Shown here: positions 28,497 to 44,259 of the stretch, piece after piece | How positions within the stretch are numbered: the first letter of the stretch is position 1 | How the letters are laid out: each line of letters opens with the position of its first letter | Source: Geobacter sp. | GTDB taxonomy: Bacteria; Desulfobacterota; Desulfuromonadia; Geobacterales; Geobacteraceae | Direction of reading: 5' to 3' | NCBI GenBank assembly: GCA_003574885.1 | Contig: PJFC01000003.1 | Coordinates: forward strand, 124,001-188,000 | Length of the DNA: 64,000 bases | Notes under the pieces: model-generated | What the model saw: the letters and a program-made list of their open reading frames with translations, nothing else | Told to the model about the DNA's origin: nothing | Databases searched by the model: none | Made by a program: the position numbers and the translations under genes

Positions 28497-28667
28497 GTTG
28501 CCCCGACATCGTACAATTTGCTACTATCTATTCTGTTCATTTCTGCTCCGGCGGATAACCATCTGAACGGCAGGGGATTCCGTTAAAGCTAAGTGGCTTG
28601 TTCAATCACCGGATCAATCTAATTAATCCTCGACACCCCGACACACCCTATTTCAGGAGTCCGTACA

Positions 28668-29336
28668 ATGGACGCAGTACCGCAATTGCAGCCGAAAAAA
28701 AACTTCTTCCCCCTCATGATTGCAACGTCATTTCTGTGCCACGCCCTCTTCTCACTCCTCCTGCTGCAGCCCCATCGGGGACGGGACATGACACCCTCCA
28801 TACCGGTTTTCGACCTGCAGATGACCAACCCGGGCATCCCTTCACCGGCAGTGAAATCCAGGGCGGCACTCCCGGCAGCGACCGCAGAACCGGAAGTCCC
28901 CGCACCGGCAGTGAACGAAGAACAGGCCACGCAGAACACTGCCGCAACCACTCCGGAGGAACTCCGGAAAAACAGCATTGGACTCGGCCTGACGAACGGC
29001 TATTTCAGCGGAATTGGAGAAGGGGAAACCCTGAGGGATGATGTACGGGAGTACTACTTCACCATGCTGCAGCAGATAAACGAAAAGTGGTGGCTCCAAC
29101 CGGGAAGCCGGCAGGGAGCAGCGGGGAACGCCGTTGTTAACCTGCTCATCGCCAGGGACGGCGTGATCGTGCGGAGCTTTCTGGTTCAAGGGTCGGGCAA
29201 TCCCGTTTTCGACCGACAGATCCTTCAGGCAGTCGCAGCAGCAAACCCCCTCCCCCCGTTGCCGGAGTCATACCAAGGTGATCTGTTCGTTGCACCGCTC
29301 CGGTTCAAGGCGCCTCTGAGCCTTATGTCGTCGTAA
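28668..29336 (+). CDS. TonB-like energy-transducer family protein
   Basis: A 222-residue protein: one N-terminal membrane helix (residues 13-33, FFPLMIATSFLCHALFSLLLL), a Pro/Ala-rich spacer (45-100) and a TonB C-terminal domain (about 125-215, with GNAVVNLLIARDGVIVRSFLVQ and NPLPPLPESYQGD). Family members pass proton-motive energy to outer-membrane receptors. No exbB/exbD or receptor gene is adjacent, and relatives without these may have structural roles. AGGAG lies 8 bases before the ATG. It stands alone on the plus strand, convergent with the TPR gene. Confidence 0.8.
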   Translation: MDAVPQLQPKKNFFPLMIATSFLCHALFSLLLLQPHRGRDMTPSIPVFDLQMTNPGIPSPAVKSRAALPAATAEPEVPAPAVNEEQATQNTAATTPEELRKNSIGLGLTNGYFSGIGEGETLRDDVREYYFTMLQQINEKWWLQPGSRQGAAGNAVVNLLIARDGVIVRSFLVQGSGNPVFDRQILQAVAAANPLPPLPESYQGDLFVAPLRFKAPLSLMSS

Positions 29337-29356
29337 CGGCGGGATTCTCCTGGTAA

Positions 29357-31933
29357 TCAGTCACCATCGAGGTCAAGAATATTGAATCTCTTGAGCTCTG
29401 AATCATCTCCCCCGCCGAGAGCGGCAATCCGGTCTAACGTATCGCGGAACCCGGGGCTCATGGCCCGGACCTCCAGATAATAGGAAAGCGCCTCGTCGGG
29501 GCGGTCAGTGGTTTCCAGTAGAAGAGCAAGCTCATAGGCAAGACTTTGTCTCTCATCCTTTCGCAGCCCGTTCAGGGCCACGCCATCGCGCAGAAGTTCC
29601 TCAGCCTTCGCCCCATCCCCCTTCTCCCGATAGCACATAGCCTGCAGAGTGATGCTATCAACCTTCCGCTGAGGGTCGTGCACCGCCTGCTCGAACTCGC
29701 CGATCGCGTCGTCGTAGAGCCCCATTTCCTTATAGGCAATACCCAGGTTGAAATGGGTTTCCGTGTCGCCGCTCTCCACCTGCTGGTCGAGCCCCTTCTT
29801 GAATGCCGAGAAAAGGCTGTCCATGCTGTACTTGCCAGCCGAGTCAGTACCAGTACCAGCACCTGCACCGGCGCCTGCAGAGCCACCATCGGCTAAAAGC
29901 TCTTCGCCCAGGGTGTCAAGGTCCAGGTCTTCACCCCAGAAGCCGGACAATTCCTCCGTTACCTCGGGGGATGTCTCCCCGAGTACCTCCGTGAGGTCCA
30001 ATTCCGCAATCGCCTCCAGCTCAATGCCAGCAACACCGGTCGAAACTTCATCCACCGCTTCCCCAACAGTCGGCTCACCAATTCCCTCCCGGGCCAGCCA
30101 GTCGTTTTCGGAGTCGATATGCAGAACGAGCGGAACAGTGCCTTCCTCGTCAAACGGTGCAATACCGCCAGCCAACGATTCAGGAACGGTCAGCTCAAGC
30201 TCCTGGGGCAGGAATGATACATCTTCCACGACATCGAGCTGAAGCTCTTCAAGCTCCTCACCATCGGTGACATGGCCTTCCCTTTCACCATAATCGGAGG
30301 CGAGAAGTTCGCCAGCGTCAATCTCAAGCTCTTCAAGTGACACGGCACCCAGTTCCAGCTCGAGGGGATACTCTTCCTCCATTTCTTCTTCCGGAAGTTC
30401 AACTTCGGGCTCACGTGACTCGGCAACCAACGGGGCAGGGAAATCTTCCGGCATAGCGGATACAATCTCCTCAGTCTCCGCCTCCAGGATCTCTTCCAGC
30501 TCTTCTTCAGCCTCCAGCTCCGGCTCAAGCTCCGGCTCAAGTTCCGGCTCAAGCTCCTCAACATCCTCAACATCCTCAACGTAGTCGTCCAGAACAGAGA
30601 CTTCGTCGGCGAATTCACCCAGGTCGACAGACGGAGGGAGTTCAACCTCCGGAAAAGGGGGCGGGATTTCAGGTTCCCCGGCGGAGTCCCCATATTCTCC
30701 AGCCGTTTCCGTCATATCTTCGGGAAGTGACAGCTCGATATCTTCTTCCCAATCCGGTACTGCAGCCTTGGCGGATGCAGGCGTTACCTGCGGTTTTTCC
30801 TCAACTACACCCTTTTTGACAGCAGGTGGTGCCTCGACGGTTTTCCGCGGCGGAGCGTGTGAAGCCTGGGGAGCTGTCTCGGAAGCAATTCGAGCCGTCA
30901 GAGCCGCCAGCTTCCCCTTGTCACCCGCCGCTTCATAGAGTGTCCGCAGCCCGGCGTATACCCTCTCGTCCTTCGGCAGAAGTCTTTCGATTTCCGTGTA
31001 GAGAGGCTCCAGCCGGTCGAACTCACCCGCGTCAACACACGCCTGCTCGGAGCCTGCAAGAAGTTCGAGGGCTGCCGAAGCGTTCTGGTCACCCAGGTGC
31101 AGTCGCGCGAGATCCGTACGGAGCGACACCTGATCCGGAAAGGCCTTAAGAATCTGCTGCAGTACCCCTTTAAGCTTTTCGGTTTCCCCCAGTTTGCGAC
31201 AGACATCAACCAGGAGCAACCATGCGCGCAAATTGCCGACATCGGTGCGGATGAGTTGCTGCAACAGGGGAATAACCCCCAATGTTTCTCCCTTGTCCAG
31301 GAGGGCAGCGATGAAATCGAGCTGGAATTCCTTCTGCTCGGGGAAGAGCGTCTGGATTCTGATGCATACCTGATTAAAGGCTTCGAGGTTTTCCTGTTTC
31401 CAGAGTAAGAGCGCCAGTTGGGTGAATTCCTGGTAGGATTTATCAGGCTGGCCCGCGGCGAAATGGAGTTCGGCAAACTGGAACTGGGTATTGAGGTTTT
31501 CCGGCTCAAGGTTGATCATCCCCTCAAGCACCTTGAGGGCTTTATCGAGCCTGCCGGCACGCTGGTAATGATTGAGCACGATGCCGTACTCGGTAAGGGC
31601 ATTGCCGGTCAACCCCTGTTTCTCGTTGAGAGTGGCAAGGGTGAGCGTTATGTCGATGTCGTCGGGGGTAAGTTTCTGAATCTGCTTATAGACCGCAATG
31701 GCTTTGAGGTAATAGGTATTGTCAGCATAGTACTTGCCGATTGCCTTGTACTCGGCTACAGCACCATCCTTGCGATTGACCTTTATCAACAGTTCGGCAA
31801 GACGCTGCCGATTGCGCATATCACTGGGATCGAGGGCGACAACCTGCTCGTAATCCTTTATTGCACGGTCGAGTTGACCTTTGGCAATGAATTTCTGGGC
31901 GGTTGCCAGATATTTTTCTTTAGGTGTACTCAA
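29357..31933 (-). CDS. Large TPR protein with acidic low-complexity middle
   Basis: An 858-residue protein. Residues 1-350 are tandem TPR-like helices (LDRAIKDYEQVVALDPSDMR and similar). Residues 380-690 are extremely acidic and Glu/Leu/Pro-rich, with a short EPEL repeat. Residues 720-830 return to TPR (LFSAFKKGLDQQVESGDTET, YKEMGLYDDAIGEFEQAVHD). No signal peptide or membrane helix. Proteins of this build act as scaffolds; a specific role cannot be read from sequence. It follows the transglutaminase gene by 68 bases on the same strand, so it may belong to the moxR unit. Confidence 0.8.
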   Translation of the reverse strand: MSTPKEKYLATAQKFIAKGQLDRAIKDYEQVVALDPSDMRNRQRLAELLIKVNRKDGAVAEYKAIGKYYADNTYYLKAIAVYKQIQKLTPDDIDITLTLATLNEKQGLTGNALTEYGIVLNHYQRAGRLDKALKVLEGMINLEPENLNTQFQFAELHFAAGQPDKSYQEFTQLALLLWKQENLEAFNQVCIRIQTLFPEQKEFQLDFIAALLDKGETLGVIPLLQQLIRTDVGNLRAWLLLVDVCRKLGETEKLKGVLQQILKAFPDQVSLRTDLARLHLGDQNASAALELLAGSEQACVDAGEFDRLEPLYTEIERLLPKDERVYAGLRTLYEAAGDKGKLAALTARIASETAPQASHAPPRKTVEAPPAVKKGVVEEKPQVTPASAKAAVPDWEEDIELSLPEDMTETAGEYGDSAGEPEIPPPFPEVELPPSVDLGEFADEVSVLDDYVEDVEDVEELEPELEPELEPELEAEEELEEILEAETEEIVSAMPEDFPAPLVAESREPEVELPEEEMEEEYPLELELGAVSLEELEIDAGELLASDYGEREGHVTDGEELEELQLDVVEDVSFLPQELELTVPESLAGGIAPFDEEGTVPLVLHIDSENDWLAREGIGEPTVGEAVDEVSTGVAGIELEAIAELDLTEVLGETSPEVTEELSGFWGEDLDLDTLGEELLADGGSAGAGAGAGTGTDSAGKYSMDSLFSAFKKGLDQQVESGDTETHFNLGIAYKEMGLYDDAIGEFEQAVHDPQRKVDSITLQAMCYREKGDGAKAEELLRDGVALNGLRKDERQSLAYELALLLETTDRPDEALSYYLEVRAMSPGFRDTLDRIAALGGGDDSELKRFNILDLDGD
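30505..30562. repeat. 12-base tandem repeat coding EPEL units
   Basis: A run of near-identical CCGGCTCAAGCT-type 12-base units (plus-strand view) encodes Leu-Glu-Pro-Glu repeats in the TPR protein. A CTCAACATC-type 9-base repeat (about 30560-30580) lies beside it. Such repeats can change length by slippage without breaking the frame. Confidence 0.75.
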
Positions 31934-32001
31934 GGATATCTCTGTGAAATTTCAGTGTTTTATCGCCGTTAGACTAATGGAATCGGAACGTCATGTCAAG
32001 C

Positions 32002-33912
32002 CTAATGAGGTGCTGCGCGCAGTTCCGCCAGGAGTGACCGAAGCTGGACATACTCGTCGCGGGAGAGTTTCAGGTCCCGGTACACCGTCTCCCCGTAAAT
32101 ACCAACGAACTGCGTTATCCGTGGCTCGTTGAGCTTCCCGGCCAAATCGTACAATCCCCTGTCCGGCGGCCATTCAATCCCGTAACGACGTTTCACCAGA
32201 GAGAAGAGTGCCTTCATCAGCCGCTCCTCCCTGCTGACTCTTCGCCAGGCACGGAATTGCCAGAACAAAACGGCTGCCAGGAGCGGCAGGACAGAAAAAA
32301 GTACCGGCCGGAGGGACACATGGCCCGACAACGACAGATGGCGAAGGCCGGCTGCCCGGTTAAAGAGGGTCATCTGTCGTTCAAGATCGTAATTGATGAC
32401 CGTCAGATTCCAGAAATAACTGAGGGAATCCAGGTACATCCGGAGCCGATGGGCGATCCCCCGCTCCCCTGCCTCCCCCACCCCGGCAAAGTTTATTGCC
32501 CAGGCACTCGGATCAACCGTGACCCACCCCTTCCCGTCGAGATAGGCTTCCACCCAGACGTGGGCACGGTCTTCAGTTACCACATAATAGCCCCCGACCT
32601 CATTATAGTCACCACCGTAATAGCCACCCACCAGCCGTGCAGGGACGTCGGCAGCTCGGAGAAGGACCGCCAGGGTCGAGGCAAAAAACTCACAGTTGCC
32701 GGGCTTCCCGTCGAACAGAAACTGCCCGAGGGGATCGGTACCGGTCGGCAGATCCTTCGTCGAATAGCGGAGCTTGCGTTCGAGGAAATGCCTTTCCAGA
32801 AGAGCCAGTCGATCGGCATCCGTCATCGCCCGCCGGGCAATCTGCCGTCCCAGAGAGATGAGACGGGGCGACAGATCGGGAGAAAGCTGCCGGTAGAACG
32901 TCAGATCAACACCGCGACTGGTACGGATAACCGCGCCGGGAACGGACTGAGTACCGTACCTGATCCTCCGCCCGATCAGCATAACGGAATTCACGATGTC
33001 GGGAGAAGTGGCAACACGAATGCCGGTCAGTTGGCGAGGAACGTTAAGGGCCAGCAAGTAGCGCGAACGGCCAGGTTCAGGAAAGATTGTCTGAACAACC
33101 ACGTTCCCCGGCCCCGGAAAGTCCCTTTCGCCGGCGGGGATCGGGCTTCGCACCCAGCTTCCCCCCTCTAGCGTGTTGAGCACGACGCCACGCCAGTAAA
33201 GCTGGTTTTTTGCCAGGGGTGGAGAATCAGCGCGAAATACGACATTCTTGACATCGGCCACGGCAAGAGCCGAACCGGGCTGAACCTTGTCGCTCAGGCC
33301 TGTTGCAGTGGCGCCGGACGCAACGTTCAGCACGTTCCAGAGCGGAAACTGGGTCCGGGGGAGAATCACGAAAAAAAGGAGAATGAGCGGCAGGGCCGCC
33401 ACCGGCATGCTCCCTGCAACCGTTATAACCTTGGCCATGCCGGCCCGGTCCATAACGGTATCGCCGTCCCGATCGTAAAAGGTCAGAAGCACGAGGGAGA
33501 CTGCAATAAGCACGAGCAGAAGGAGGAGGTAGAAGAGGAAGACGGCACTCAGGCTGAGAAGGGATGAGCCGGCCAGTGCGAACAGGGACAGGGCATAGAT
33601 CTGAAGATAGTTCCGGCTCCCTTTCTCGCTCGCGAGGCGGACCGCCAGAAGGATGACGAGGAAGTTGACCGCCGGTCCCACAAGATTGTCACGGGATAAC
33701 TGGATGACGTAATAGATGAAGAACAGGATGGATACGACCGTCGGCAGATGGCCGCGGAGCAGCCTGCCGCGCCGATCGGCTGCAATTGCGAACAGAAACA
33801 CTGCCGGAAAGAGGAACCGGGGAATCATGTCCAGGTAGGCAACGAGCGGGACAAAGCCGAGAAGGGCTATGCCGTACGCAAGTATGTCCAGTACCGATTT
33901 AATTCTTACCAT
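32002..33912 (-). CDS. Membrane transglutaminase-like protein (TgpA / DUF3488 family)
   Basis: A 636-residue protein with about six N-terminal membrane helices (residues 10-190), a periplasmic region containing the transglutaminase core, a further membrane helix near 545-565 and a C-terminal DUF4129-like tail. The catalytic triad is visible: Cys in GNCEFFASTLAVLL, His in DRAHVWVEAYL and Asp in WVTVDPSAWA. TgpA proteins are thought to act on periplasmic proteins or peptidoglycan and are usually encoded beside MoxR and DUF58, as here. The start overlaps the DUF58 gene by 14 bases. Confidence 0.93.
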   Translation of the reverse strand: MVRIKSVLDILAYGIALLGFVPLVAYLDMIPRFLFPAVFLFAIAADRRGRLLRGHLPTVVSILFFIYYVIQLSRDNLVGPAVNFLVILLAVRLASEKGSRNYLQIYALSLFALAGSSLLSLSAVFLFYLLLLLVLIAVSLVLLTFYDRDGDTVMDRAGMAKVITVAGSMPVAALPLILLFFVILPRTQFPLWNVLNVASGATATGLSDKVQPGSALAVADVKNVVFRADSPPLAKNQLYWRGVVLNTLEGGSWVRSPIPAGERDFPGPGNVVVQTIFPEPGRSRYLLALNVPRQLTGIRVATSPDIVNSVMLIGRRIRYGTQSVPGAVIRTSRGVDLTFYRQLSPDLSPRLISLGRQIARRAMTDADRLALLERHFLERKLRYSTKDLPTGTDPLGQFLFDGKPGNCEFFASTLAVLLRAADVPARLVGGYYGGDYNEVGGYYVVTEDRAHVWVEAYLDGKGWVTVDPSAWAINFAGVGEAGERGIAHRLRMYLDSLSYFWNLTVINYDLERQMTLFNRAAGLRHLSLSGHVSLRPVLFSVLPLLAAVLFWQFRAWRRVSREERLMKALFSLVKRRYGIEWPPDRGLYDLAGKLNEPRITQFVGIYGETVYRDLKLSRDEYVQLRSLLAELRAAPH

Positions 33913-34801
33913 ACAACGCCAGTTCCGTCAGGAGCCGCAACCGGTGTCCCCGGGAATCGGATGGTTTGAGCAGCCGCCTGCGCAGCTTGAGCCCCACCGG
34001 GCGCCCCTCCCGCATCAGGCGGTTCACGAGGTAGGTCGCGCAGGAAAGCTTCTCTTCCAGGTTACCCACCGGCAGCCGGTCAATGTCGATCACGAGGGGT
34101 TCATTCGCCGTGGCACTCAGTTTTTTGACCCTCAGCTCATCATGGCGAGCCGACAGGCGCCAGTGGATCATCTTGAGGGGATCACCGCCGCTGTAGGCAA
34201 CGATCCGGTGGAGATCCCCCTCGTACCCTTCCCCCTGCGAGGACAGGGAACCACTCTTGCCATAGGAGCGTGAATCGGCCCCATGTTGGCAGCCAAGGGG
34301 CGCGGGGAAAACAACGGCCCGCAGGTCGAGGGGAAGCGTGCGACAGCGGACAAAAAAATTGATGGGAAAGGGGGAACAGACCGTCACCCCGTCGACGGTA
34401 TGGGTGCCGCGCCCTGTGAACGCGGTCATGAATGATGACGTGGCCGTCCCCTTGCGGTCAACCAGCTGAAAATCGGCAGTCGCGCCGTTCCAGTGGATCC
34501 GGAGAAGAAACGACGGCAGGAGACGCTTGCGGTTGGTGAGGCGCAGTGTAAACAGGGTGGAAACACCGCTGTACAACTCTTCGGGATGGGCCAGGTCGGC
34601 ATCGAGGCCATGGATGTTGAGCCAGCCGAGGACTCCCGATACCGCCATGAAACCGAGCAGGGACGAAACGATAAAGAAGAGCAGGTTATTTCCCGTATTT
34701 ACCGCAGCGAAGCCGACCAACAGGGTTATGGCTATGTAAAACGCACCGGCCCTGGTAAGAGTCAGACCAGCGGTACCGGTATGCTTCCGAGAATGGCGGA
34801 T
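33899..34801 (-). CDS. DUF58 family membrane-anchored protein with non-canonical start
   Basis: The conserved DUF58 domain is clear (RLTNRKRLLPSF region, GTHTVDGVTVCSPFPINFF, and DLHRIVAYSGGDPLKMIHWRLSARH at 180-215 of the short form). A start at TTG 34720 would remove half of the first membrane helix. The frame stays open upstream and encodes the family sequence LTLTRAGAFYIAITLLVGFA, but has no ATG, GTG or TTG there. Two candidates exist: ATC at 34801, with AGGAGG 7 bases upstream (300 residues), or CTG at 34765, overlapping the moxR stop as CTGA (288 residues). I give the longer form. Partner of MoxR and TgpA. Confidence 0.75.
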   Translation of the reverse strand: MRHSRKHTGTAGLTLTRAGAFYIAITLLVGFAAVNTGNNLLFFIVSSLLGFMAVSGVLGWLNIHGLDADLAHPEELYSGVSTLFTLRLTNRKRLLPSFLLRIHWNGATADFQLVDRKGTATSSFMTAFTGRGTHTVDGVTVCSPFPINFFVRCRTLPLDLRAVVFPAPLGCQHGADSRSYGKSGSLSSQGEGYEGDLHRIVAYSGGDPLKMIHWRLSARHDELRVKKLSATANEPLVIDIDRLPVGNLEEKLSCATYLVNRLMREGRPVGLKLRRRLLKPSDSRGHRLRLLTELALYGKN

Positions 34802-35703
34802 AGGAGTTCCTCCTTATTGACACTCTCCTGTTCGGGGCGACAGATGAGGCGGTGTGAACCGACCGCTACCGCAACCTCCCTCACGTCCTCGGGCACCACA
34901 TGTTCACGCCCCTCCAGGTAGGCATTGGCACGGGCGGCCTCGGCCATATTGATCCCCCCCCGGGTAGAGATTCCGGAAAGGAGCAGAGGATGGTTTCTTG
35001 TCGCCGCTATGATCGCAAATATGTAGTTCGTCACCTTGTCCGACAGGAACACACTCTCCTTCACCGCCCGCCGGGCAGTCAGGATGTCGTCGGAGTTCAC
35101 CAGCGGCTCGATGTGCTGGATGTCGTCCCTGATGCTGCCGTAGGCGATGATCGACTTTTCCAGCTCTTCGGGCGGATAGCCGATGCCGGTCCGTATGGTG
35201 AAGCGGTCCAGCTGGGATTCGGGCAGGGGATAGGTACCGACCTGCTCAAGGGGGTTCTGGGTAGCAATAACGAGAAACGGTTCGGAAAGAGTATAGGTCA
35301 CCCCCTCCACCGTCACCCGGCGCTCTTCCATCGCTTCCAGCATGGCGCTCTGGGTCTTGGGCATGGCCCGGTTCACCTCGTCCACCAGGACGATACTGTT
35401 GAAGATCGGCCCCCGGATGAACTTGAATGAGCTCTCCTCCCGGCTGAAGACGGAGAGGCCGGTGATGTCCGACGGCAGCAGGTCGCTTGTGCACTGGATC
35501 CGGCCAAACGACAGGCCGAGCACGTTGGCCAGGGCAAGGGCCAGGGTCGTCTTGCCAAGGCCAGGAATATCCTCCAGAAGGATGTGCCCCCCCGTCAACA
35601 GGGCGATCAGCGACAGCCGGACCGCCTTGTCCTTCCCTTTCAGGTGGCGGCCGGTGAGTGTTTCCATGACGGTGAGGATTTCGGCACGTTTGGCAAGGCT
35701 CAT
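34762..35703 (-). CDS. MoxR-family AAA ATPase
   Basis: A 313-residue AAA protein: Walker A LLEDIPGLGKTTLALALANV (GLGKTT), Walker B SIVLVDEVNRA, sensor region ATQNPLEQVGTYPLPESQLDRF and the sensor 2 part STRGGINMAEAARANAYLEG. MoxR ATPases act as chaperone-like partners of DUF58/VWA proteins. First gene of moxR - DUF58 - tgpA. Its 3' end overlaps the DUF58 frame. Confidence 0.95.
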   Translation of the reverse strand: MSLAKRAEILTVMETLTGRHLKGKDKAVRLSLIALLTGGHILLEDIPGLGKTTLALALANVLGLSFGRIQCTSDLLPSDITGLSVFSREESSFKFIRGPIFNSIVLVDEVNRAMPKTQSAMLEAMEERRVTVEGVTYTLSEPFLVIATQNPLEQVGTYPLPESQLDRFTIRTGIGYPPEELEKSIIAYGSIRDDIQHIEPLVNSDDILTARRAVKESVFLSDKVTNYIFAIIAATRNHPLLLSGISTRGGINMAEAARANAYLEGREHVVPEDVREVAVAVGSHRLICRPEQESVNKEELLSAILGSIPVPLV

Positions 35704-35816
35704 GGTGGAGTCGATTCCTTCGTTGTGGGATGTAAAAAGTGTACCACAGGATCGGTGGATTGCGTAAGAGAGAGCCGTTGAAGGCGTGCAGACAGGGATG
35801 ATTCAGGGGATGATGA

Positions 35817-35850
35817 CATGATGGCGACAGGGGCAGCTGTCGCCATCATG
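35817..35850. repeat. Perfect 14-base inverted repeat between moxR and ychJ-like gene
   Basis: CATGATGGCGACAG and CTGTCGCCATCATG flank a 6-base loop (GGGCAG), 6 bases after the ychJ-like stop. It can form a strong hairpin and may protect or end the ychJ-like transcript, but no T-run follows on either strand. Confidence 0.8.
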
Positions 35851-35856
35851 ATATAC

Positions 35857-36351
35857 TTACTTACCGCAGCATTTCTTGTACTTGGCACCGCTACCGCAGG
35901 GGCAGGGGTCGTTGCGCCCCACCTTCGGCTCGCTCCGTACAAGCGGTTTGGGTGCCACCAGATTCCCATCCGAGAAATACCAGCGGCCGCCATCCTTCTC
36001 AAAGGAAGCCAGTTCATGGTGGACCTTCCGTCCCCCTTTGTCACGGTAGGTAGCCTTGAACTCCACCTCGCCGGCGGTATCGTCCGCTCCGCCGGCGTTG
36101 ATGGCAACAATTTCCAGCTTCTCCCACTCCGCACTCTCAGCCCACTCCCGGGTCCCCTTGTGGTCATACCCCTCGCGATGCTTAGGATGGGTGGTTTCAA
36201 AGATATAATCAGTATCGACCGTCACATAGGCGCTGTAACGGGAACGCATCAGCTGTTCAGCGGTCTGGGCCGGCTGTTTCCCCTTAATGACAGGTTCACA
36301 GCAGTCGGCAAAGAGAAGGTTCGAACCGCAGGGACAATTGGACATGTACAT
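35857..36351 (-). CDS. YchJ-like SEC-C motif protein
   Basis: A 164-residue protein with a SEC-C zinc-binding motif at each end: [13 protein letters not shown] near the N-terminus and [17 protein letters not shown] at the C-terminus. The YchJ (UPF0225) middle domain lies between them ([30 protein letters not shown]). Function is unknown in the family. SEC-C motifs bind zinc and often contact SecB or ribosome-associated partners. It appears monocistronic. Confidence 0.92.
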
Positions 36352-36485
36352 ACTCCTTGAAAGAAAATGGGAAGAAACCTTGGCTACCGCGTGGAAACGG
36401 TTGCCGAAAATACGACACCCGCTGTATAAACTTTTCCCGCCCCGATTGTCAAGTAATGCATTTTAAATGAAATGAAGGTACGGAA

Positions 36486-37448
36486 CTAGGGGATGAGTAC
36501 GATCTTGCCGAGCGTGCTCCCCTCCAGTACCGCATGGTGGGCCGCCACTGCTTCGGCCAGGGGTAATTCCCGGCTCACCAGCGGCCTCAGGGTGCCATTG
36601 GCAAGACCTGCCGAAAAGGCAGCATGCATACTGGCCAGCTCTTTTTCCGAGGCATTGAAGAGGGTCATGCCGAGGATAGCTGCCTCCCGTCCCATGGCAC
36701 TGCGAGGGTCAATCTCCACCCTGCCCCGGCTGCCGATGACCACGACCCGGCCGTCTTTCGCCAGCGCGGCCAGATCATGGTCCAGATTCACGTTGGCCAG
36801 CATCTCGACGATAACTTCGACCCCCTTGCCACAGGTCAGTTCCGTCAGCTGCTCCATATACCCTGCGGTATGGTGATTGAGGACGTGCCGGGCACCCTGA
36901 GCCAGCACCAGTTCCATCCCCTTCTCAGAACCTGCGGTCCCTATCACGATGAGGCCGGCTGCAACGGCCAGTTGAAGGGCGGCGATCCCCACCCCGCCGC
37001 TGGCACCATGAACCAGCACAGTCTCTCCCGCCAGGGCGTGCGCCCGCTGAAAGAGAGCACGATAGGCGGCTCCGTACGGGACCCCGATGGCTGCTCCCTG
37101 GCCAAACCCAATCCCTTCCGGCAGCGGATGGGTCTGGAACTCCCGGCAGAGGAGCTCTTCGGCATAGGTACCCGAGAGCGAACCGGCGACATAGACCCGC
37201 TCCCCCACCCGTCGATGGTGCACATCCGGACCGACGGCACTGATGACCCCGGCCGCGTCGAGGCCGGGGGTATAGGGAAGCTTCAAGTCCGGCCGGTACA
37301 GGCCGGAACGGATATAGGTATCCACCGGGTTTACCCCGATGGCGGAGACCTTGACGACCACCTGGCCTGGACCGGGGGTCAGACCGGGCACCTCCTCAAG
37401 GCGCATGGTTTCGGGAGGACCAAACTCATGGACACGTATCGCTTTCAT
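36486..37448 (-). CDS. Zinc-independent quinone oxidoreductase (zeta-crystallin-like MDR family)
   Basis: A 320-residue protein: MKAIRVHEFGPPETMRLEEV start, GVNPVDTYIRSGLY, PYTPGLDAAGVI, and the NADPH-binding VLVHGASGGVGIAALQLA. The zinc ligands of alcohol dehydrogenases are absent, as in NADPH:quinone reductases. A much longer frame is open upstream to 37901, but the ATG at 37448 has AGGAGAGG just before it and the family start. Monocistronic, divergent from the PNPOx-like gene. Confidence 0.93.
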   Translation of the reverse strand: MKAIRVHEFGPPETMRLEEVPGLTPGPGQVVVKVSAIGVNPVDTYIRSGLYRPDLKLPYTPGLDAAGVISAVGPDVHHRRVGERVYVAGSLSGTYAEELLCREFQTHPLPEGIGFGQGAAIGVPYGAAYRALFQRAHALAGETVLVHGASGGVGIAALQLAVAAGLIVIGTAGSEKGMELVLAQGARHVLNHHTAGYMEQLTELTCGKGVEVIVEMLANVNLDHDLAALAKDGRVVVIGSRGRVEIDPRSAMGREAAILGMTLFNASEKELASMHAAFSAGLANGTLRPLVSRELPLAEAVAAHHAVLEGSTLGKIVLIP

Positions 37449-37649
37449 GGATTCCTCTCCTTTCAGTAGGGTTTCGTCTATCTGCCGGAAATTCGGCACA
37501 TTTCGATACAGTATAGCACCCTTACCCCGGAGGGCCACCTTCTCCACCGGGATAGAATTCCCGCGCGGGTTGACCACCGGGGAAATGCACCTAAACTTGA
37601 GAGTAGGTGTTTTCATGGAACAGACCATATCGACAGGAGAGATGACGCC

Positions 37650-38048
37650 ATGCTCACGGAGGAAATCAGACGTTTCATTGCGGGGAACCCCCTTGCGTTC
37701 GTGGCCTCCACGGACAGCACCGGCAATCCCCACCTGGCAACCGGATGCGAAGTCAGGGTCCTGGATGCCGAGCACCTTGCGTTCGAGAACTGGTTCTGCC
37801 AGACCACCCTGCGCAATCTTGGCGACAATCCTCAGGTGGCGGTTGCGGTGATGGCGCTGGATTCGAGAACCGGCTACCAGTTCATCGGCAAGGTGGCCCA
37901 CGCCTTCGATGCTGCCATCCTGGACGGCTACGCACCGGGAGCCGAACCGCCGGATATTCCCCAGACACTGACCCGCTTCGTGATCCGGGTGGAAAAGGTC
38001 CTAGCCTTCTGCAGCGGCATACACACCGACCTTCCTTTGCCTGAATGA
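37650..38048 (+). CDS. Pyridoxamine 5'-phosphate oxidase-like flavin-binding protein
   Basis: A 132-residue split-barrel protein: MLTEEIRRFIAGNPLAFVAS, TGNPHLATGCEVRVLDAEHLAF and NLGDNPQVAVAVMALDSRTGYQFIG-like sequence match small PNPOx-like FMN-binding proteins. Substrate unknown. The ATG at 37650 has AGGAGA about 9 bases upstream. It is the last core-type gene before the A/T-richer segment. Confidence 0.8.
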   Translation: MLTEEIRRFIAGNPLAFVASTDSTGNPHLATGCEVRVLDAEHLAFENWFCQTTLRNLGDNPQVAVAVMALDSRTGYQFIGKVAHAFDAAILDGYAPGAEPPDIPQTLTRFVIRVEKVLAFCSGIHTDLPLPE

Positions 38049-38077
38049 TTGTGGGAACCTTGAATGGCAGGACGTTG

Positions 38078-38101
38078 AAAGCCCGCTAGTGCGGGCTTTT
38101 T
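38078..38101 (+). terminator. Rho-independent terminator
   Basis: AAAGCCCGC, loop TAGT, GCGGGCTTT, then TT. It ends the PNPOx-like gene and, because arms are flanked by A and T runs, can also stop transcription coming from the opposite strand. Confidence 0.85.
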
Positions 38102-38124
38102 GCTGTGTGGCGCAGAAGAATAAA

Positions 38125-38588
38125 TTCTTCTCAATCCTCGCGGAGATATGGCTTGTATACTTTTCCAAACAGCCGTTTTTAGCCGCTCCTTGTCCAGCAC
38201 ATAGCCGCGAATGGCAAAGTCGCGCAAAACCCCCGTCGCCCACTGGCGGAACTGCTCGGCGCGCGGAGTTCACCCGAAAGCCCACAGCAATGATGGCGTC
38301 GAGGTTGTAGAAATCGACATTCCTCGCCACATCACGGTTGCCCTCTTTTTGAACTATCCGGAATTTCCGGATAGTTGCCTCCCGGTGCTGCTCACCGTTT
38401 TCATAGATATTCCCCAAGTGCTCATTGATCGTGCGCACATCCACTTCAAACAGCACTGCCATCAGCTTTTGCGTCAGCCAGACCGTTTCATCCTCAACGC
38501 GCACCTCAATGGTGTTTTCACCCGCCTGTGTGGTAAAGATCAGGAACTCGACTGTGCTGTTGCGGATTTGGAGTTTTTTTCTTTCCAT
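38125..38588 (-). pseudogene. RhuM-family gene remnant, frameshifted and truncated
   Basis: The first 110 codons read as an intact RhuM N-terminus: VRVEDETVWLTQKLMAVLFE, DVRTINEHLGNIYENGE, and VARNVDFYNLDAIIAVGFRV. Near 38255-38265 the frame shifts by one base. The family sequence FRQWATGVLRDFAIRGYVLD then continues in another frame for about 30 codons before homology fades. The usual protein exceeds 300 residues, so this copy is dead. RhuM genes are common passengers of restriction-modification and mobile islands. It lies 34 bases past the nuclease stop on the same strand. Confidence 0.8.
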
Positions 38589-38621
38589 AGGAGACCTGCT
38601 CGAATTCATGCAATTGTAAAA

Positions 38622-39317
38622 TTAGGTCTGAAGCCAGAGGTGAGTTACTGATATAGTGCATGCAGGTCCGTGATTTTCCAGCCAATCAAATTCCCTCTTA
38701 TGGCTCGAGCGGTAAATGGAGTGTTCAATGATTTCGGAATGACTTTTCGTTTTCAGGCTAGCACTCAGTTTGTCGTCATTAAGAACTGCTGCGAGCTTGT
38801 TGAAGGTATATCTACCAGTTACATATCCTACCATCATGCTGTCCTGCATAGCCCAGGCATAGTCTCCGTTTACGAATCGAATCAGGCCCTTTTGACAGTA
38901 GCATGATGATAAGGGATGATCACTGTCAACGGGCTTGCATTCAACAAAGAGCCCATCCTGATCGCTATAGACGGGGTATTTCTCCCGTTTAAGATCAAAG
39001 AAGATATCCGGTTTTTTGTCCGGGTGATTCTTGTCAAAGTTTGTAATTTCCGGCCCGCGAAACACCTTACCGAAAAAAACGTGGTTGAATCCCTCAACTT
39101 CTCCGTTTTTCCGCAAACGGTTTTCGATGATCTCCACCAGAATCTGGGTAATAACGTCTTCATTCGCTGATTGTAGATGAAAGTTTGCAGGTGGATTGTC
39201 AGCGAGCAGTTGCCAGGCGCGTCTGATTACATTGCAGAAAAGCAGAATAGTTCGCTGGGGGATGGGTGGATGTGGCAAGGTAAACTCAATGCCCTGTGTA
39301 AAGAAGCCTACGGCCAT
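38622..39317 (-). CDS. Putative PD-(D/E)xK nuclease, partner of the upstream methyltransferase
   Basis: A 231-residue protein not recognised as a named enzyme. The core matches a PD-(D/E)xK nuclease: a helix with Glu53 (ANEDVITQILVEIIE), KKPDIFFDL (Asp104), then DGLFVECKPV with Glu126-x-Lys128, and a following YCQKGLIRFVNGDYAWAMQD helix. These are the metal and catalytic residues of restriction-type nucleases. The ATG overlaps the methyltransferase stop as ATGA, so the two are translated together. A restriction role is inferred from the motif plus this coupling. Confidence 0.65.
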   Translation of the reverse strand: MAVGFFTQGIEFTLPHPPIPQRTILLFCNVIRRAWQLLADNPPANFHLQSANEDVITQILVEIIENRLRKNGEVEGFNHVFFGKVFRGPEITNFDKNHPDKKPDIFFDLKREKYPVYSDQDGLFVECKPVDSDHPLSSCYCQKGLIRFVNGDYAWAMQDSMMVGYVTGRYTFNKLAAVLNDDKLSASLKTKSHSEIIEHSIYRSSHKREFDWLENHGPACTISVTHLWLQT

Positions 39318-42300
39318 CAGCTTCTCCCTACAGGGAAAACGTCAAGGTGATTACGCTGTATCTCCAGGGCGCATAGGCGGGCGCGGCTCAAAGTCCAGTA
39401 TCGGTATTGGCCGATAATTCCCACAAGCAACGTGCCGTCTTCATGAACAATCACCCGGCTGCATCCTGTTTCATTGACTGCTTGGGCAATGTGGGCAATT
39501 AATTTTTTCTGAGTTGCTTGCGAAAAGACCGCGGGAGAATTGGACGCCGAAACGGCGAAGAAGTGCCAAGGGGCAAGAATATCCGAGCTCTCGGCTACTA
39601 CTTCACCAACCTTTACCGTTTCATTGGTGATAGCAAAAGAAGGCGCAAGCAGCCGCTGCAGTTCGGCATAAAACACCTCGCGTTCTTTACTGGCCGGGGC
39701 GCTATTGGCCCGGTCTCGTGCCTCTTTATAAGGTGGCGCGACTTCAAGGGTGTCTTTCACAACCTGACGGTCATATTTATCAAGACCGTAAAGGTCGAAG
39801 ATGAAGTCGTTGATCTCCTGCCAGGGCTTGTCGGGAGAGGTTTCAAGATGTTTGGATAATTCTATGGCACGTTGGCGCTGATTATCTGAATACAGATTGA
39901 GCGCCGGGAAAGGGAATTTATCAATACTTTCTTTTAGAAAAGTTCTTCGTTCCGCCCCCATTCTCGAACTCGTCATCAATAAATAATATCTGAACAGTTC
40001 AGAGTTGGTAATTAGATGAAGAAGTGCAATGGTACAATCTGCTTCCTTGCTACCATTAGCTGAAAAACCGTAATAGCTTTTACTGAAAACAACAGGGGCC
40101 AACACCACCCATGATTTTGGAGAATTAAGCAAACTTCCGGGTGATTCGGGAACGATGAGTAGTGGTGGGGCATACAGTTCAGGGTTTCTAGATCTATGAA
40201 CCGTGATGTGCCTGAATTTTATAAGTACGGACGTATCAACAAAAAAACCATCATTCTCAGGAGGGATAAAATCTAGCAGTTCGCGCATGAACGAAACCTT
40301 GTTTTTATCCATCTGAGGCTGGTCGGGTGATAGGTCGTAACCTCTTTTTGAGTGTAATTTATGATTTTTCCAAAAAGAACCAACTGTCGGCCAATTCAGT
40401 TCATGAAATTTTCGAAATACTTCAGCATCAAGCGCAGTTCCCACTGCCAATGTCTTCAAGAGCCAAGGGTCATTTGTGACTGCTGATGCGGCAATCGGTT
40501 GGGCTGATTGGTAATCTATACGCAATCGCCCCTTGTCGTTCAAACGCTTTTCATAATGAGGAGTAACAAAATAAAAATGATGATTCTCAGCAGGTACTTT
40601 ATTCCTTGCAAAAAAGAGCATGAACGGCTGATTCATACGCGGCCACACAGCGGTGTCCGACAGGTTTGAGCCATTCAGAATGCCGGTAATCTCAAGCCCC
40701 TTGAGAATAGCGTTAAACGCACGGGTGCCTGGAGGTGTCTGCTTCAAAAAAATCCTTCCGTGCAGTGCCATGGCGATAATGCCGCCCGGCTTCGTCCATT
40801 GCGTTGATTTCCATAAGAACGGCAGATCCGGGTTGTTGTCGGGATTACTGTATGTCCTTGCAATATCCCCAAGCCCGCGACCTTCCAGAATACGACGGGT
40901 CAATGCGGTAAATTCCGCAACATGGGTTTTATTTTCTTTCTTTGCTTCGTCGTCTTCTCCCTTAAGCTTGCTCCATGGCGGATTCCCTATGACCAGATCA
41001 AACCGGCCATTGAACTCTTCGGAAAGGTCAGGACGCAGGCTCCCCAAAACAAACCCACGGCTGTCATGCTCCTCGGGCTTTCTTTGATTATGAAGAACAA
41101 CGCCCTGAAGCGGCTCGAAAAACTTCAATTTTTTCGGGGGGCGTGGTGAATCATTCAGTTCGATGGCGGTAATGTAAAGCGACAACGCCGCCAGGCGTAG
41201 TGCCGACTCACTGACGTCGAATCCGCACAGTTGTTTATACAAGATATCCTGAATAACCTTGGTATTCGGTCGTTTCCCATCATGAGCCCAACGGGCGGCG
41301 ACAAGCTTCCGGAACGCAAGAACCAGAAAGATCCCCGCACCACAACTGGGGTCAAGGACATGAGCGTCTTTCTTGTTGGCAACCCCTTCAAAAGCATCAT
41401 CCACCAGATAACGGGCAATGTTTTTGGGTGTGTAGTAGACGCTGGTATTTTCCGAGCGCTGGGCATCCCATGCCCTGCTGAAACTTTCGTAAACCTGACT
41501 GAGCACTCCAATGGGTATATGAGCAAAGTCCAGATCACCCCAATCTAATTTGCCTTGATATTGCCCGTTTCCTACATAGACCCATCCTTCAAGTATGGCC
41601 CGTAAATGATCAAATATTTTGCTGCCGGTACTCCTGTCAGCTTGAGTGAAGACATCTTCAAATGAGCTGGAAAACGGCAGTAAATCGCCATTGAAAGTGT
41701 CATCAAGCCACTGGCAGGTAGCTACGGAATTGGCAACATTACGGAAACAGTCACCGTGGGATTTCGCCTGAGGGCAAATGGTGGCCAGTTCATCCGGCCT
41801 GATGATCTGGCGGTCCCACAGGAAACGAAAAAAGAGTGCCCGGCCAAGAAACGAAAGAACATCCAGAGGATTAATACTATCAATGAGGTCCTCGGATGAG
41901 CGGCGCATCAAAGTGTGAATTTCTTCAAAAACATAGTCAGGGGCTTTTGGCTGCCCTTTCAATTCGAACAAATCGTTAACAATATTCTGAAAGAAGAGCG
42001 GCGCTGCCGCAGAATCCGGTCTGATGGTCTCCTTATAACCGCGCGCCAGGACGGCGCGGTCCAGATTGATGGGATAGACATTCAACTCACCCGGACTCAA
42101 GACACCCAGGTAAGCCCGCTCCCCCCTGTTGGCCAGAAGGTGCTGCAATTCGATAATCTTTTCTTTATCAAGCTGTTTTGCCCGGTTTTCCGATACGATG
42201 TAGAGCAGAGGTCTGGCCTGGAATTCGGCAACAGCGTCAACTTTCAAAGTGCTGTTACCGGAAGTTTTCAAAAGATCGAGGTAGTCCAAATGTCTTGGAG

Positions 42301-42364
42301 TAGTGCCGTCCAGCAAAACAACATCATTACATCCATACTCTTTGATAGAAGCCAGAAGATTCAT
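39317..42364 (-). CDS. Eco57I-like adenine-specific DNA methyltransferase (restriction-modification type)
   Basis: A 1015-residue protein. An N-terminal region (1-290) has no nuclease motif that I can identify. Next come SVYYTPKNIARYLVD, motif I HVLDPSCGAGIFLVLA (near 336-350), FDVSESALRLAALSL, and motif IV FDLVIGNPPWSKLKG (near 455-470), together marking a gamma-class N6-adenine methyltransferase. The C-terminal 500 residues would recognise DNA. The start ATG (42364-42362) overlaps the LexA-like stop as ATGA, which decides the start. Its own stop overlaps the nuclease start. Probably acquired; the segment is richer in A/T than its neighbours. Confidence 0.85.
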   Translation of the reverse strand: MNLLASIKEYGCNDVVLLDGTTPRHLDYLDLLKTSGNSTLKVDAVAEFQARPLLYIVSENRAKQLDKEKIIELQHLLANRGERAYLGVLSPGELNVYPINLDRAVLARGYKETIRPDSAAAPLFFQNIVNDLFELKGQPKAPDYVFEEIHTLMRRSSEDLIDSINPLDVLSFLGRALFFRFLWDRQIIRPDELATICPQAKSHGDCFRNVANSVATCQWLDDTFNGDLLPFSSSFEDVFTQADRSTGSKIFDHLRAILEGWVYVGNGQYQGKLDWGDLDFAHIPIGVLSQVYESFSRAWDAQRSENTSVYYTPKNIARYLVDDAFEGVANKKDAHVLDPSCGAGIFLVLAFRKLVAARWAHDGKRPNTKVIQDILYKQLCGFDVSESALRLAALSLYITAIELNDSPRPPKKLKFFEPLQGVVLHNQRKPEEHDSRGFVLGSLRPDLSEEFNGRFDLVIGNPPWSKLKGEDDEAKKENKTHVAEFTALTRRILEGRGLGDIARTYSNPDNNPDLPFLWKSTQWTKPGGIIAMALHGRIFLKQTPPGTRAFNAILKGLEITGILNGSNLSDTAVWPRMNQPFMLFFARNKVPAENHHFYFVTPHYEKRLNDKGRLRIDYQSAQPIAASAVTNDPWLLKTLAVGTALDAEVFRKFHELNWPTVGSFWKNHKLHSKRGYDLSPDQPQMDKNKVSFMRELLDFIPPENDGFFVDTSVLIKFRHITVHRSRNPELYAPPLLIVPESPGSLLNSPKSWVVLAPVVFSKSYYGFSANGSKEADCTIALLHLITNSELFRYYLLMTSSRMGAERRTFLKESIDKFPFPALNLYSDNQRQRAIELSKHLETSPDKPWQEINDFIFDLYGLDKYDRQVVKDTLEVAPPYKEARDRANSAPASKEREVFYAELQRLLAPSFAITNETVKVGEVVAESSDILAPWHFFAVSASNSPAVFSQATQKKLIAHIAQAVNETGCSRVIVHEDGTLLVGIIGQYRYWTLSRARLCALEIQRNHLDVFPVGRS

Positions 42365-43005
42365 GGGCAGCACCGATTATCTGCGGTTCGAACGATTCCC
42401 TGGTAGCGTCCAAGGATACGGACAGAGTCGCCCTTGTCCATGTCGTAAGTAAGGTCTTTAAATGCGGGGTTTTCCGATTTCAGAACCAAGGCTGCCGATG
42501 AAAAGAATACCCGCTTCAACGTGGCTTCCTGTTCTACCAGCACAGCAGCGATTTCTCCATTTTCAACCCGATCCATCCTTTTGATTATGGCGATATCCCC
42601 ACTATTGATACCGGCACCGATCATACTATCGCCAAGAACATGAAGAGCGAATATTTCCCCGCCGCCAAACAAGGCTGGAGGCACAGGTAGATGACCTTCC
42701 AGGTTTTGCTCCGCCCAAATGGGTAAACCTGCTGCAATTCTGCCGAGTAAGGGGATTGAATTGTCCGACTGTTCAATGACCGGCGTTGGCAACGATAACA
42801 ACTGAATCCCGCGGGCTTTTCTGGAGTTCAGTTGGATATGACCTTTTTTTTCGATAAGCTGCAGGTGGTTCCGCACAGCATTCTGACTACCGAAACCAAA
42901 GTGTTCACGAATTTCCGCCTGAGTAGGGGGGAAGCCACTGTTTTTTTGGCTTTCGCCGACAAAATCCAAGATTTCAGACTGTTTTTTAGTCAGTCCTTTC
43001 ATCAA
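42361..43005 (-). CDS. LexA-type repressor (S24 self-cleaving), first gene of the methyltransferase/nuclease operon
   Basis: A 214-residue protein with a winged helix N-terminus (LTKKQSEILDFVGESQ, TQAEIREHFGFGSQNAVRNH) and an S24 protease domain. The cleavage site is Ala92-Gly93 (GRIAAGLPI), the nucleophile Ser127 (LGDSMIGAG) and the base Lys164 (ATLKRV), with the same spacings as E. coli LexA (34 and 37 residues). All parts needed for RecA-stimulated self-cleavage are present. The gene starts the three-gene operon and is preceded by a promoter with repeats. It may be a genomic LexA paralogue recruited as controller. A second lexA elsewhere cannot be excluded. Confidence 0.9.
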   Translation of the reverse strand: MMKGLTKKQSEILDFVGESQKNSGFPPTQAEIREHFGFGSQNAVRNHLQLIEKKGHIQLNSRKARGIQLLSLPTPVIEQSDNSIPLLGRIAAGLPIWAEQNLEGHLPVPPALFGGGEIFALHVLGDSMIGAGINSGDIAIIKRMDRVENGEIAAVLVEQEATLKRVFFSSAALVLKSENPAFKDLTYDMDKGDSVRILGRYQGIVRTADNRCCP

Positions 43006-43023
43006 ATCCTCACACGCTACAAA

Positions 43024-43072
43024 ATAGTGTTACTATAAACAGTGTTATAATGCACAGTGGCAATAAAAGCAA
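43024..43072 (-). promoter_or_regulatory. Promoter and likely operator of the LexA-like operon
   Basis: On the minus strand TTGCTT (43072-43067), a 17-base spacer and TATAAC (43049-43044) form a fair promoter. Overlapping the -10 and start region are a palindrome ATAGT-GTT-ACTAT (43024-43036) and two direct copies of AGTGTTA (43026-43032 and 43041-43047, 15 bases apart). Such an arrangement suits self-repression. It differs from the GGTT-N2-C-N4-G-N3-ACC box described for Geobacter LexA. Confidence 0.6.
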
Positions 43073-43171
43073 TGGCGATTTTCAAGCAGCTAATGACGAT
43101 AATAGGCTATCAATCCGACCGGCAATCTTCTTTTACTTTGTGACTCGGGTGACACGATCCGCATTTTTTGC

Positions 43172-43276
43172 TTAAATATCACTCTCCAACTTTCTCCCGC
43201 CCCTTCCAATCAACCCATTGAAATTCTCCCTCATCACCACCTGCTTGCCCGGCTGCTTATAGATGTACGATTTCAT
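43172..43276 (-). other. Short open frame carrying copy A of a duplicated sequence
   Basis: Thirty-four codons, starting MKSYIYKQPGKQVVMRENFN and ending in LESDI. The part at 43181-43247 resembles copy B at 43534-43605 at the DNA level (shared TTCTCCCGCCCCTTCC and CACCACC segments). It looks like the 3' end of a lost gene rather than a real gene. I do not recognise the family. Confidence 0.35.
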
Positions 43277-43348
43277 CGTATAACTCAGGATAGTCCTTTT
43301 TGAAGAGTTCCATTTGACATTACACCAATAAAGCTTCGGAATCCATGC

Positions 43349-43501
43349 TTATCCCGGTCTTTTCCTCGTCACAAGCCTCGCCCTGGTCATCCGCTCCCGC
43401 AGACCACCTTCTTTCAAAAGCGTCTGTTCCAGCGCTTTCAACTGTTTATCCAGCAGAAAACTGGCGACCCTGATCAGGCCGATAATCATTGGCAGCAATC
43501 G
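43349..43501 (-). pseudogene. Remnant of a four-helix-bundle suffix-domain gene
   Basis: An open stretch of 50 codons ending in TAA encodes RVASFLLDKQLKALEQTLLK then EGGLRERMTRARLVTRKRPG. This matches the C-terminal helical segment of proteins annotated as four helix bundle suffix domain, related to ribosomal S23 intervening-sequence proteins. No upstream part of the gene is present. It lies between the two duplicated fragments, so the area is a graveyard of gene ends. Confidence 0.6.
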
Positions 43502-43534
43502 CTGAACGAAAACCGGGATACTCCCCGTTTTTTC

Positions 43535-43675
43535 TCACTCCCCACCTTCTCCCGCCCCTTCCCGATCAATCCCTCGGAATTCTCCCCCCGTCACCACCAA
43601 CTTGCACAACCGCTTTTTGATATCCCGGTGGGTGTCGCCATCAACGGGAAAAAACAAAGGAACCGGGTTATGCAT
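43535..43675 (-). other. Short open frame carrying copy B of a duplicated sequence
   Basis: Forty-six codons from an ATG at 43675. They include FFPVDGDTHRDIKKRLCKLV and end GAGEGGE. The segment at 43534-43605 is the diverged partner of copy A. No ribosome binding site is evident and the family is unknown to me. Probably a gene remnant. Confidence 0.35.
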
Positions 43676-44259
43676 GCAATAAAGGAATTTAGGAAAAAAC
43701 CGCTTCATCAGCTATCACACTGACAAAGCGGCGCTATGAACCTGCATTCCCGCGTCCCATCCGTCCCTCCAAGGGTTTTACATAAATAATTCCTCACCTA
43801 CATACACCCGTGAAGACGGGAGTGCCAAGGTTAAAGGCGGGCTAAGGGCAATGGTCTCCAGGCACTGTGGAAAATATGAAAGTAAACCTAAAACAGTTAA
43901 TAACTAAATGGTTAGCTAGCAACCCATCAACCTTAACATAAAATATTTACCCTGCATCGCCCCCGCGCTCCTGCCCACCTTATTTTCGGAGACATCAGAA
44001 GCCGTAATGTCAGCATAACATTAGATCAAACAATTACGTCTCCACGCTAACTCGACATTTTTAAACAACTAAATTGACCGCACAATACACGCATCGACTT
44101 ACCACCATACCTGCTTACCTACACACAATCCTTCATTTCTTCAGCTATACGACGTTGCGCCACTCTGTACCCCCCTTACGTGCAAAGACTTCCCATTTCG
44201 GCAATTTCCTGCTAGACTGCGATCACTTGCTGTGCCTACTCCATTTACAGGATGAACCG
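43676..44259. other. A/T-rich stretch without a recognisable gene
   Basis: Between the gene fragments and thrC. I see no supported gene, RNA or mobile-element end. The thrC promoter should lie near its right end. The reading frame of thrC is open upstream to 44074, but its codons there do not resemble threonine synthase. This stretch marks the right border of the probable island. Confidence 0.5.

Follow-up and report, generated by a model that had tools for sequence, protein, structure and literature searches.

Why should a full-length LexA repressor head an operon whose other members are a DNA methyltransferase and a nuclease? The question is raised by a three-gene unit, hereafter the cassette, on a 64,000-nucleotide stretch of a Geobacter sp. 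genome (assembly GCA_003574885.1, contig PJFC01000003.1, positions 124,001 to 188,000; the whole stretch is called the window). The reading that we favour, with a probability of roughly two in three (0.67), is that of a horizontally transferred type II/IIG-like restriction–modification (R–M) cassette equipped with its own autoregulatory, damage-cleavable LexA. The argument refers to the following features, in window coordinates:

42361..43002, minus strand: cassette LexA gene, 213 aa from the ATG at 43002; a TTG at 43005 is an alternative start
39317..42364, minus strand: N6-adenine DNA methyltransferase (MTase) gene, 1015 aa; its ATG overlaps the lexA stop
38622..39317, minus strand: PD-(D/E)xK nuclease gene (assignment predicted), 231 aa; its start overlaps the MTase stop
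43025..43059, minus strand: putative operator of two overlapping LexA-type boxes, LexA binding being predicted from the sequence
43044..43072, minus strand: predicted sigma70-like promoter, consensus score 8, scored without a control
37597..44032, no strand: island holding the cassette, missing from three same-genus genomes, with limits taken from one of them (G025)

All three open reading frames (ORFs) are found on the minus strand, in line with the coupled genes described in the initial annotation. The lexA/MTase junction is indeed ATGA (42361–42364), whereas the MTase/nuclease junction, annotated in the same way, proved to be TGATG with a 1-base overlap (39315–39319). Whether the gene order recurs elsewhere had been left for a search of other genomes, and it is not unique to the window's genome. 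Scanning 84,980 species genomes with nuclease peptide patterns, a procedure whose counts are lower bounds, we found at least 34 nuclease loci, and an intact lexA followed by MTase and nuclease occurs in 14 of the 34 (L005, L007–L012, L015, L016, L018–L020, L022 and L023; the MTase of L022 consists of two ORFs, and the contig of L010 stops inside the nuclease gene or right where it finishes). The lexA/MTase junction in these 14 loci is ATGA in nine, GTGA in two, TGATG or TAATG in two and abutting in one, and a stop–start overlap joins MTase and nuclease in 14 of 14 relatives compared (L013 and L014 included, L022 and L023 left out). Comparison of the window with L005, its nearest relative elsewhere, reveals purifying selection on every gene, with non-synonymous over synonymous divergence (dN/dS) of 0.075/0.54 for LexA, 0.114/0.83 for the MTase and 0.042/0.29 for the nuclease, each about 0.14.

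Is the first product a genuine self-cleaving LexA? It matches the NCBIfam lexA equivalog model TIGR00498 over the full profile at 167.5 bits (cut-off 110.95), exceeds the Pfam cut-offs of both Peptidase_S24 and LexA_DNA_bind, and aligns over its full length with the Escherichia coli LexA chains of solved structures (E 1.7e-36). The cleavage site Ala91–Gly92 and the catalytic Ser126 and Lys163 are invariant in all 16 aligned cassette LexAs, the window's included. The complete set of self-cleavage residues had been recognized from the start; the numbering given then (Ala92–Gly93, Ser127, Lys164) was counted from the upstream TTG and gives way to that from the likelier ATG at 43002. RecA-stimulated self-cleavage of LexA, followed by derepression, is established biology, and RecA is encoded in the window's genome; by analogy, the cassette LexA would be expected to cleave itself in the same manner.

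If this LexA controls its own operon, an operator should be recognizable. Upstream of the window's lexA stand two boxes, CACTG-N10-CACTG at 43040–43059 and CACTG-N10-CACTA at 43025–43044, where a repressor footprint had been proposed at 43024–43050. They overlap a predicted promoter with a −35 element TTGCTT (43067–43072), a 17-base spacer and a −10 element TATAAC (43044–43049); across the 17 cassette promoters, the box and the top-ranked promoter prediction overlap in 11, the window's among them, many of these predictions being low-scoring and obtained without a control. The consensus TACTG-N10-CAGTA, which we take to agree with the E. coli LexA box, has a match of at least 8/10 upstream of 16 cassette lexA genes out of 17, where only the deleted gene of L006 falls short, and 13 of the 17 score at least 9/10. 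Among 15 other lexA promoters none reaches 9 and three reach 8, and a score of 8 is not reached at any of 17 MTase genes that lack an intact lexA. The stretch scanned was 100 bases long upstream of lexA genes and 210 bases long around the starts of MTase genes, and the comparison set consists of 15 non-cassette LexA loci, excluding fragments and matches without a locus; the consensus and the scan patterns were written after these promoters had been viewed, so the shuffle values are descriptive.

Genome-wide, a palindromic pattern with at most one mismatch gave nine sites in five genomes, one in each of four and five in the fifth (G158), with all five cassette promoters among them; the reversed-pattern control gave 1, 0, 9, 0 and 0. 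When up to two mismatches were allowed, a second pattern gave eight sites in nine genomes, namely seven cassette lexA promoters and one position elsewhere in G143, and no site in G141 or G151. Together, cassette promoters account for 12 of the 17 sites in 14 genomes, and for this reason the LexA looks dedicated. The resident lexA of the window's genome carries a different palindrome, TAGTGTACAAATATACACTA, with the pattern TAGTGT-N8-ACACTA, of which a perfect copy lies upstream of the resident lexA in the congener G026; one-mismatch sites number one in G024, one more in the window's genome and none in G025. Geobacter sp. UBA6151 (G141) carries two complete cassettes, and at the promoter of the second (L067) both halves of the box differ in a symmetric way (TACCG-N10-CGGTA). 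Judging from this one case, the variant may keep the two copies insulated from each other; repressor–operator co-variation between them is possible. At the position where the LexA of the co-resident copy has SQNAVRNH, the LexA encoded at L067 has SITTVRDH.

Does the cassette LexA nevertheless serve the host? It could be an SOS repressor of the host, either displaced or a second one, that stands beside an R–M system and governs ordinary SOS genes, a reading that its passing of the lexA equivalog model would allow and that has some precedent, Geobacter reportedly possessing two autoregulated lexA genes, to go by the title of a published study. A second LexA above the family cut-off is present in nine of the 14 genomes with intact cassette lexA in the nuclease-scan set, and the other five (G143, G146, G148, G152 and G151, which is Malonomonas rubra) have none; because of this, the cassette LexA could also serve the host in those five. 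Several of them are draft metagenome assemblies, although M. rubra is not. Phylogeny, in contrast, places the 16 cassette LexAs in one clade (support 99/98), separate from 12 other LexAs of the carrier genomes, in a tree that left out the partial or unusual L062, L073 and L074 and the internally deleted L006. Pairwise identities across 14 loci, window included, are closely correlated between LexA and MTase (r=0.963), LexA and nuclease (r=0.967) and MTase and nuclease (r=0.982; each p=0.0002, permutation), and the LexA–MTase value is still 0.907 when limited to ten closer loci. This separate clade and its co-divergence with the MTase, the concentration of boxes at cassettes, the different box of the resident lexA and the failure of M. 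rubra to give any site with the second pattern all speak against a host repressor, which we regard as very unlikely; on sequence evidence, the cassette LexA looks like a dedicated regulator.

The lexA copy count that the initial annotation had called for gives, in the window's genome, the cassette lexA and one resident lexA. Two further S24-peptidase proteins are encoded there (L003, G000:C10:330330-330665; L004, C1:792617-792844). In M. rubra the cassette LexA is the sole match to the LexA model above cut-off, beside two weaker S24-type matches, one with an internal stop.

What does this LexA control? The MTase exceeds the Pfam cut-offs of N6_Mtase and Eco57I, as expected of the Eco57I-like enzyme first proposed, and retains intact DPSCGAG and NPPW motifs. 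Its best PADLOC match is a type IIG enzyme, and each of the 31 MTases in the alignment hits a PADLOC IIG model. The structure model (predicted local distance difference test, pLDDT, 84.1) is helical, with MTase and target-recognition regions alignable over residues 142–872 (numbered without the start Met), and it matches CamA (Z 28.9), BrxX/PglX (25.4), DrdV (23.6) and MmeI (23.1). Between the window and L005, MTase identity is 82% overall and falls to 46–55% around residues 641–720, with a lesser dip to 57% at 801–840; both lie in the part that aligns with target-recognition domains, and such a drop would be expected if specificities diverge. The enzyme would methylate DNA at a target of its own.

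The alignment with BrxX/PglX, together with a weak one with mad2 (43.1 bits), also brings to mind a BREX-like or MADS-like methylation-guided exclusion system whose MTase subunit would be of the PglX or MAD2 type and to which the nuclease would be accessory. BREX MTase models, however, reach no more than 36.8 bits, their cut-offs being 400–900, and MAD2 scores 28.9 against 720. BREX core genes of the pglZ/brxC type stand beside PglX; among the ORFs of the island, to which this search was confined, no such gene nor any other BREX or MADS gene was found, and inspection by eye of as many as four ORFs downstream at each of 29 loci showed no recurrent fourth gene. We consider such an exclusion system highly improbable.

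The third product was assigned to the PD-(D/E)xK nucleases on the strength of D104, E126 and K128, and these residues are right: E53, P103, D104, E126 and K128 (P103-D104 and E126-C-K128) are the same in all 35 sequences aligned. The structure model (pLDDT 90.9) has the PD-(D/E)xK core order helix-strand-strand-strand-helix-strand (H53–71, E82–86, E105–109, E122–131, H136–149, E159–166), and the invariant residues fall where such a core would have them. Structural comparison with VIA-align returned OkrAI (Z 7.8), BglII (7.6) and BamHI (6.8), followed by McrC, Card1, Can2, NucC and Shedu; most of the 50 structural matches listed are, we take it, restriction-like nucleases, two Rep15 entries being clear exceptions. 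The nuclease fold first proposed is thereby supported, and the PD-(D/E)xK claim is made because fold class and invariant residues agree, no single structural match being strong. By sequence, nothing in the PDB falls below E 0.07, and Pfam searches with the 35 family members touched nine families, one member each, at a best E of 0.0022. With its predicted active site intact, the protein may be an active nuclease.

Is the cassette a resident of these genomes or a mobile element? Full-cassette carriers are labelled Thermodesulfobacteriota, Nitrospinota, Kiritimatiellota, Pseudomonadota, Acidobacteriota and, once, Myxococcota, and include Malonomonas rubra DSM 5091 and Bradyrhizobium pachyrhizi PAC 48. 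Within this range the occurrence is rare and patchy, with two of 395 genomes positive in a phylum sample and five of 141 in an order sample (the window's own counted in both; two of the five weak). The nuclease was not found in three same-genus genomes (G024, G025 and G026), from which the island is absent too: in G025 only about 190 bases separate the counterparts of window positions 28646–37596 from those of 44033 and beyond, and in G024 and G026 more is absent, starting at 36462 and extending to 44081 and 44177. L005 shares only 38260–43084 of the compared 28000–52000, at 83% DNA identity. Judged by these comparisons, the cassette is horizontally mobile. The second UBA6151 cassette may lie in a defence island; the protein upstream of its lexA (L111, G141:C28:125000-131000) presumably starts like the C-terminal part of an Eco57I/TaqI-like restriction enzyme.

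A phage or plasmid origin was considered and not adopted. No phage record contained the nuclease at E 0.01, and a viral-contig scan for close relatives yielded one contig, with the MTase present and no LexA found. Five plasmid records hold a relative, three of them over 80% of its length. Cassette-type LexA did not occur among the matches listed for plasmids (best full-length identity 39%, best 30 of 91 records) or phages (best full-length identity 37%, best 20 of 27 records, with shorter matches up to about 42%). Just after the nuclease, window positions 38001–38609 hold what is left of a gene of the RhuM family (Pfam Virulence_RhuM; PADLOC candidate models PDC-S05/S23). It was rejected as a fourth cassette member, being present, besides the window, only in L005 among the 29 loci searched.

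How firmly is LexA tied to the enzyme pair? Two of the 34 loci carry lexA remnants with the middle deleted, in L014 (before 4966, MTase ORF intact) and in L006 (1050–1265, MTase split into two ORFs), and in 13 of the 34 there is room for lexA and none was found; five could not be classified for want of upstream sequence or of an MTase. Because those 13 loci show none, LexA is not essential to the MTase–nuclease pair. On an MTase tree built by a quick method, in which 28 rows were scored and the L014 remnant counted as presence, lexA presence needs at least four changes, which implies recurrent losses and perhaps gains. Excluded were L006 and L022, whose MTase is split over two ORFs, the partial L025, and L017, which lacks an MTase; L027, L035 and L036, with short upstream sequence, were unscored. 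The regulator slot also seems exchangeable. A gammaproteobacterial branch has an unrelated protein of about 150 residues in the lexA slot (L037:4523-4972 and L079:2466-2921, with a partial match in L038); the L037 protein gives a sub-threshold helix-turn-helix (HTH) match, and in L079, a plasmid, the slot protein and MTase genes overlap by 4 bases.

These elements can be assembled into a working model. The large type IIG-like MTase, with its built-in target-recognition region, would mark host DNA, and the separate small PD-(D/E)xK nuclease, made from the same transcript, would cut DNA lacking the mark. The dedicated LexA would bind at its own promoter, to one or two boxes of the E. coli type, and so hold down the whole operon, lexA included. 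DNA breaks, caused by phage infection, by entry into a naive host or by nuclease cutting of under-methylated host DNA, would activate RecA, which on single-stranded DNA would stimulate self-cleavage of the cassette LexA, and MTase and nuclease would rise together until newly made LexA accumulated and brought both down again. The nuclease is taken to be gated, most simply by methylation, because the 13 loci without LexA and L014 keep both enzyme ORFs.

Several observations weigh against this reading. The window's own boxes are weak, with an 8/10 match and a shuffle p of 0.061, five of the 17 pattern sites lie away from cassettes (L095–L098 in G158 and L106 in G143), and the reversed control of the second pattern scan gave seven sites against eight. 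The five carriers with no second LexA and the 13 loci with no LexA at all belong here too. On the nuclease side, all Z values are under 8, at which level they can reflect a common arrangement, Foldseek with the nuclease model gave no significant match, and PADLOC, Pfam and NCBIfam returned none for the window's nuclease. That the nuclease would cut only unmethylated DNA is assumed, by analogy, from R–M logic.

If the nuclease were not gated by methylation, the cassette could be a toxin–antitoxin-like or abortive module whose nuclease kills the damaged cell, with an epigenetic role for the MTase. Placing nuclease and MTase under an SOS-type repressor would resemble some SOS-controlled toxins such as SymE, described as LexA-repressed in PMC3874152. 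Both ORFs are nevertheless kept in the 13 loci without LexA and in L014, and an ungated toxin is therefore unlikely, an argument to which L006, with its broken MTase frame, adds nothing; we hold such a module to be quite improbable.

The same 13 loci and L014 bear differently on a reading in which LexA acts as a C protein-like timer and safety loop, not as a sensor of phage damage. A naive cell without repressor would make enzyme in bulk, LexA would then damp expression, and self-cutting from under-methylation would trigger SOS and restore the MTase. The first position of lexA in the operon, the boxes over its own promoter and the mobile, patchy cassette would suit such a loop, and since those loci keep both ORFs, expression without LexA seems tolerated. 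The MTase/nuclease overlap, on the other hand, means that there is no built-in delay of the nuclease behind the MTase, and all components are common to the damage-responsive R–M cassette, from which the timer differs in purpose only. It is a possibility that we take seriously, although somewhat unlikely. A further version, in which the system is normally silent, MTase included, on a largely unmethylated host, and damage-triggered LexA cleavage arms both enzymes to protect the population without standing immunity, appears unlikely.

Should the damage-responsive R–M cassette be confirmed, a private LexA and operator would couple an R–M-type defence directly to DNA breaks, and would show that a mobile defence unit can take on LexA as a switch of its own. 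Its presence in named strains (M. rubra DSM 5091, B. pachyrhizi PAC 48) makes this testable now. R–M control is known through small C proteins, through the MTase itself and through restriction alleviation after DNA damage. The sign of the proposed control would be opposite to the damage-induced alleviation of type I enzymes described in a 2025 R–M review (PMC12707154). A search of that review for the word LexA gave nothing, and PMC3874152 mentions it twice, both times for toxin–antitoxin systems. The initial annotation knew of no described system with this arrangement, and we likewise found no described LexA-controlled R–M system in searches of the open-licence PMC literature.

Compared with known systems, the cassette has the components of R–M, an MTase with intact catalytic motifs and a partner endonuclease whose predicted active site is intact. 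With type IIG/IIL enzymes (DrdV, MmeI, BpuSI) it has in common the architecture of MTase and target recognition, but the type IIG union of nuclease and MTase in one polypeptide is absent: the nuclease is a separate protein encoded by its own gene, not an N-terminal domain of the MTase, and a regulator is added. C protein-controlled type II systems (PvuII, Esp1396I) likewise have a regulator gene in the R–M operon and autoregulation. Their C proteins are small HTH controllers of about 80 aa, in whose place the cassette has a 213-aa self-cleavable LexA, with a potential link to DNA damage. BREX, as described in PMC9122589, resembles it in combining a large PglX-like adenine MTase with a dedicated regulator in a defence locus, but the island has no other BREX genes, a nuclease is present and LexA replaces the WYL protein BrxR. 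The regulatory logic itself is already known from the lexA2-imuA-imuB-imuC(dnaE2) cassette of Pseudomonas putida, where, according to PMC5261740, lexA2 is co-transcribed with the operon and mediates its damage induction. Both have a second lexA that regulates, or here would regulate, its own operon, the payload being translesion synthesis there and an adenine MTase and nuclease here. The unit is real, conserved and unusual, and probably joins a known lexA2-type logic to a restriction-type payload.

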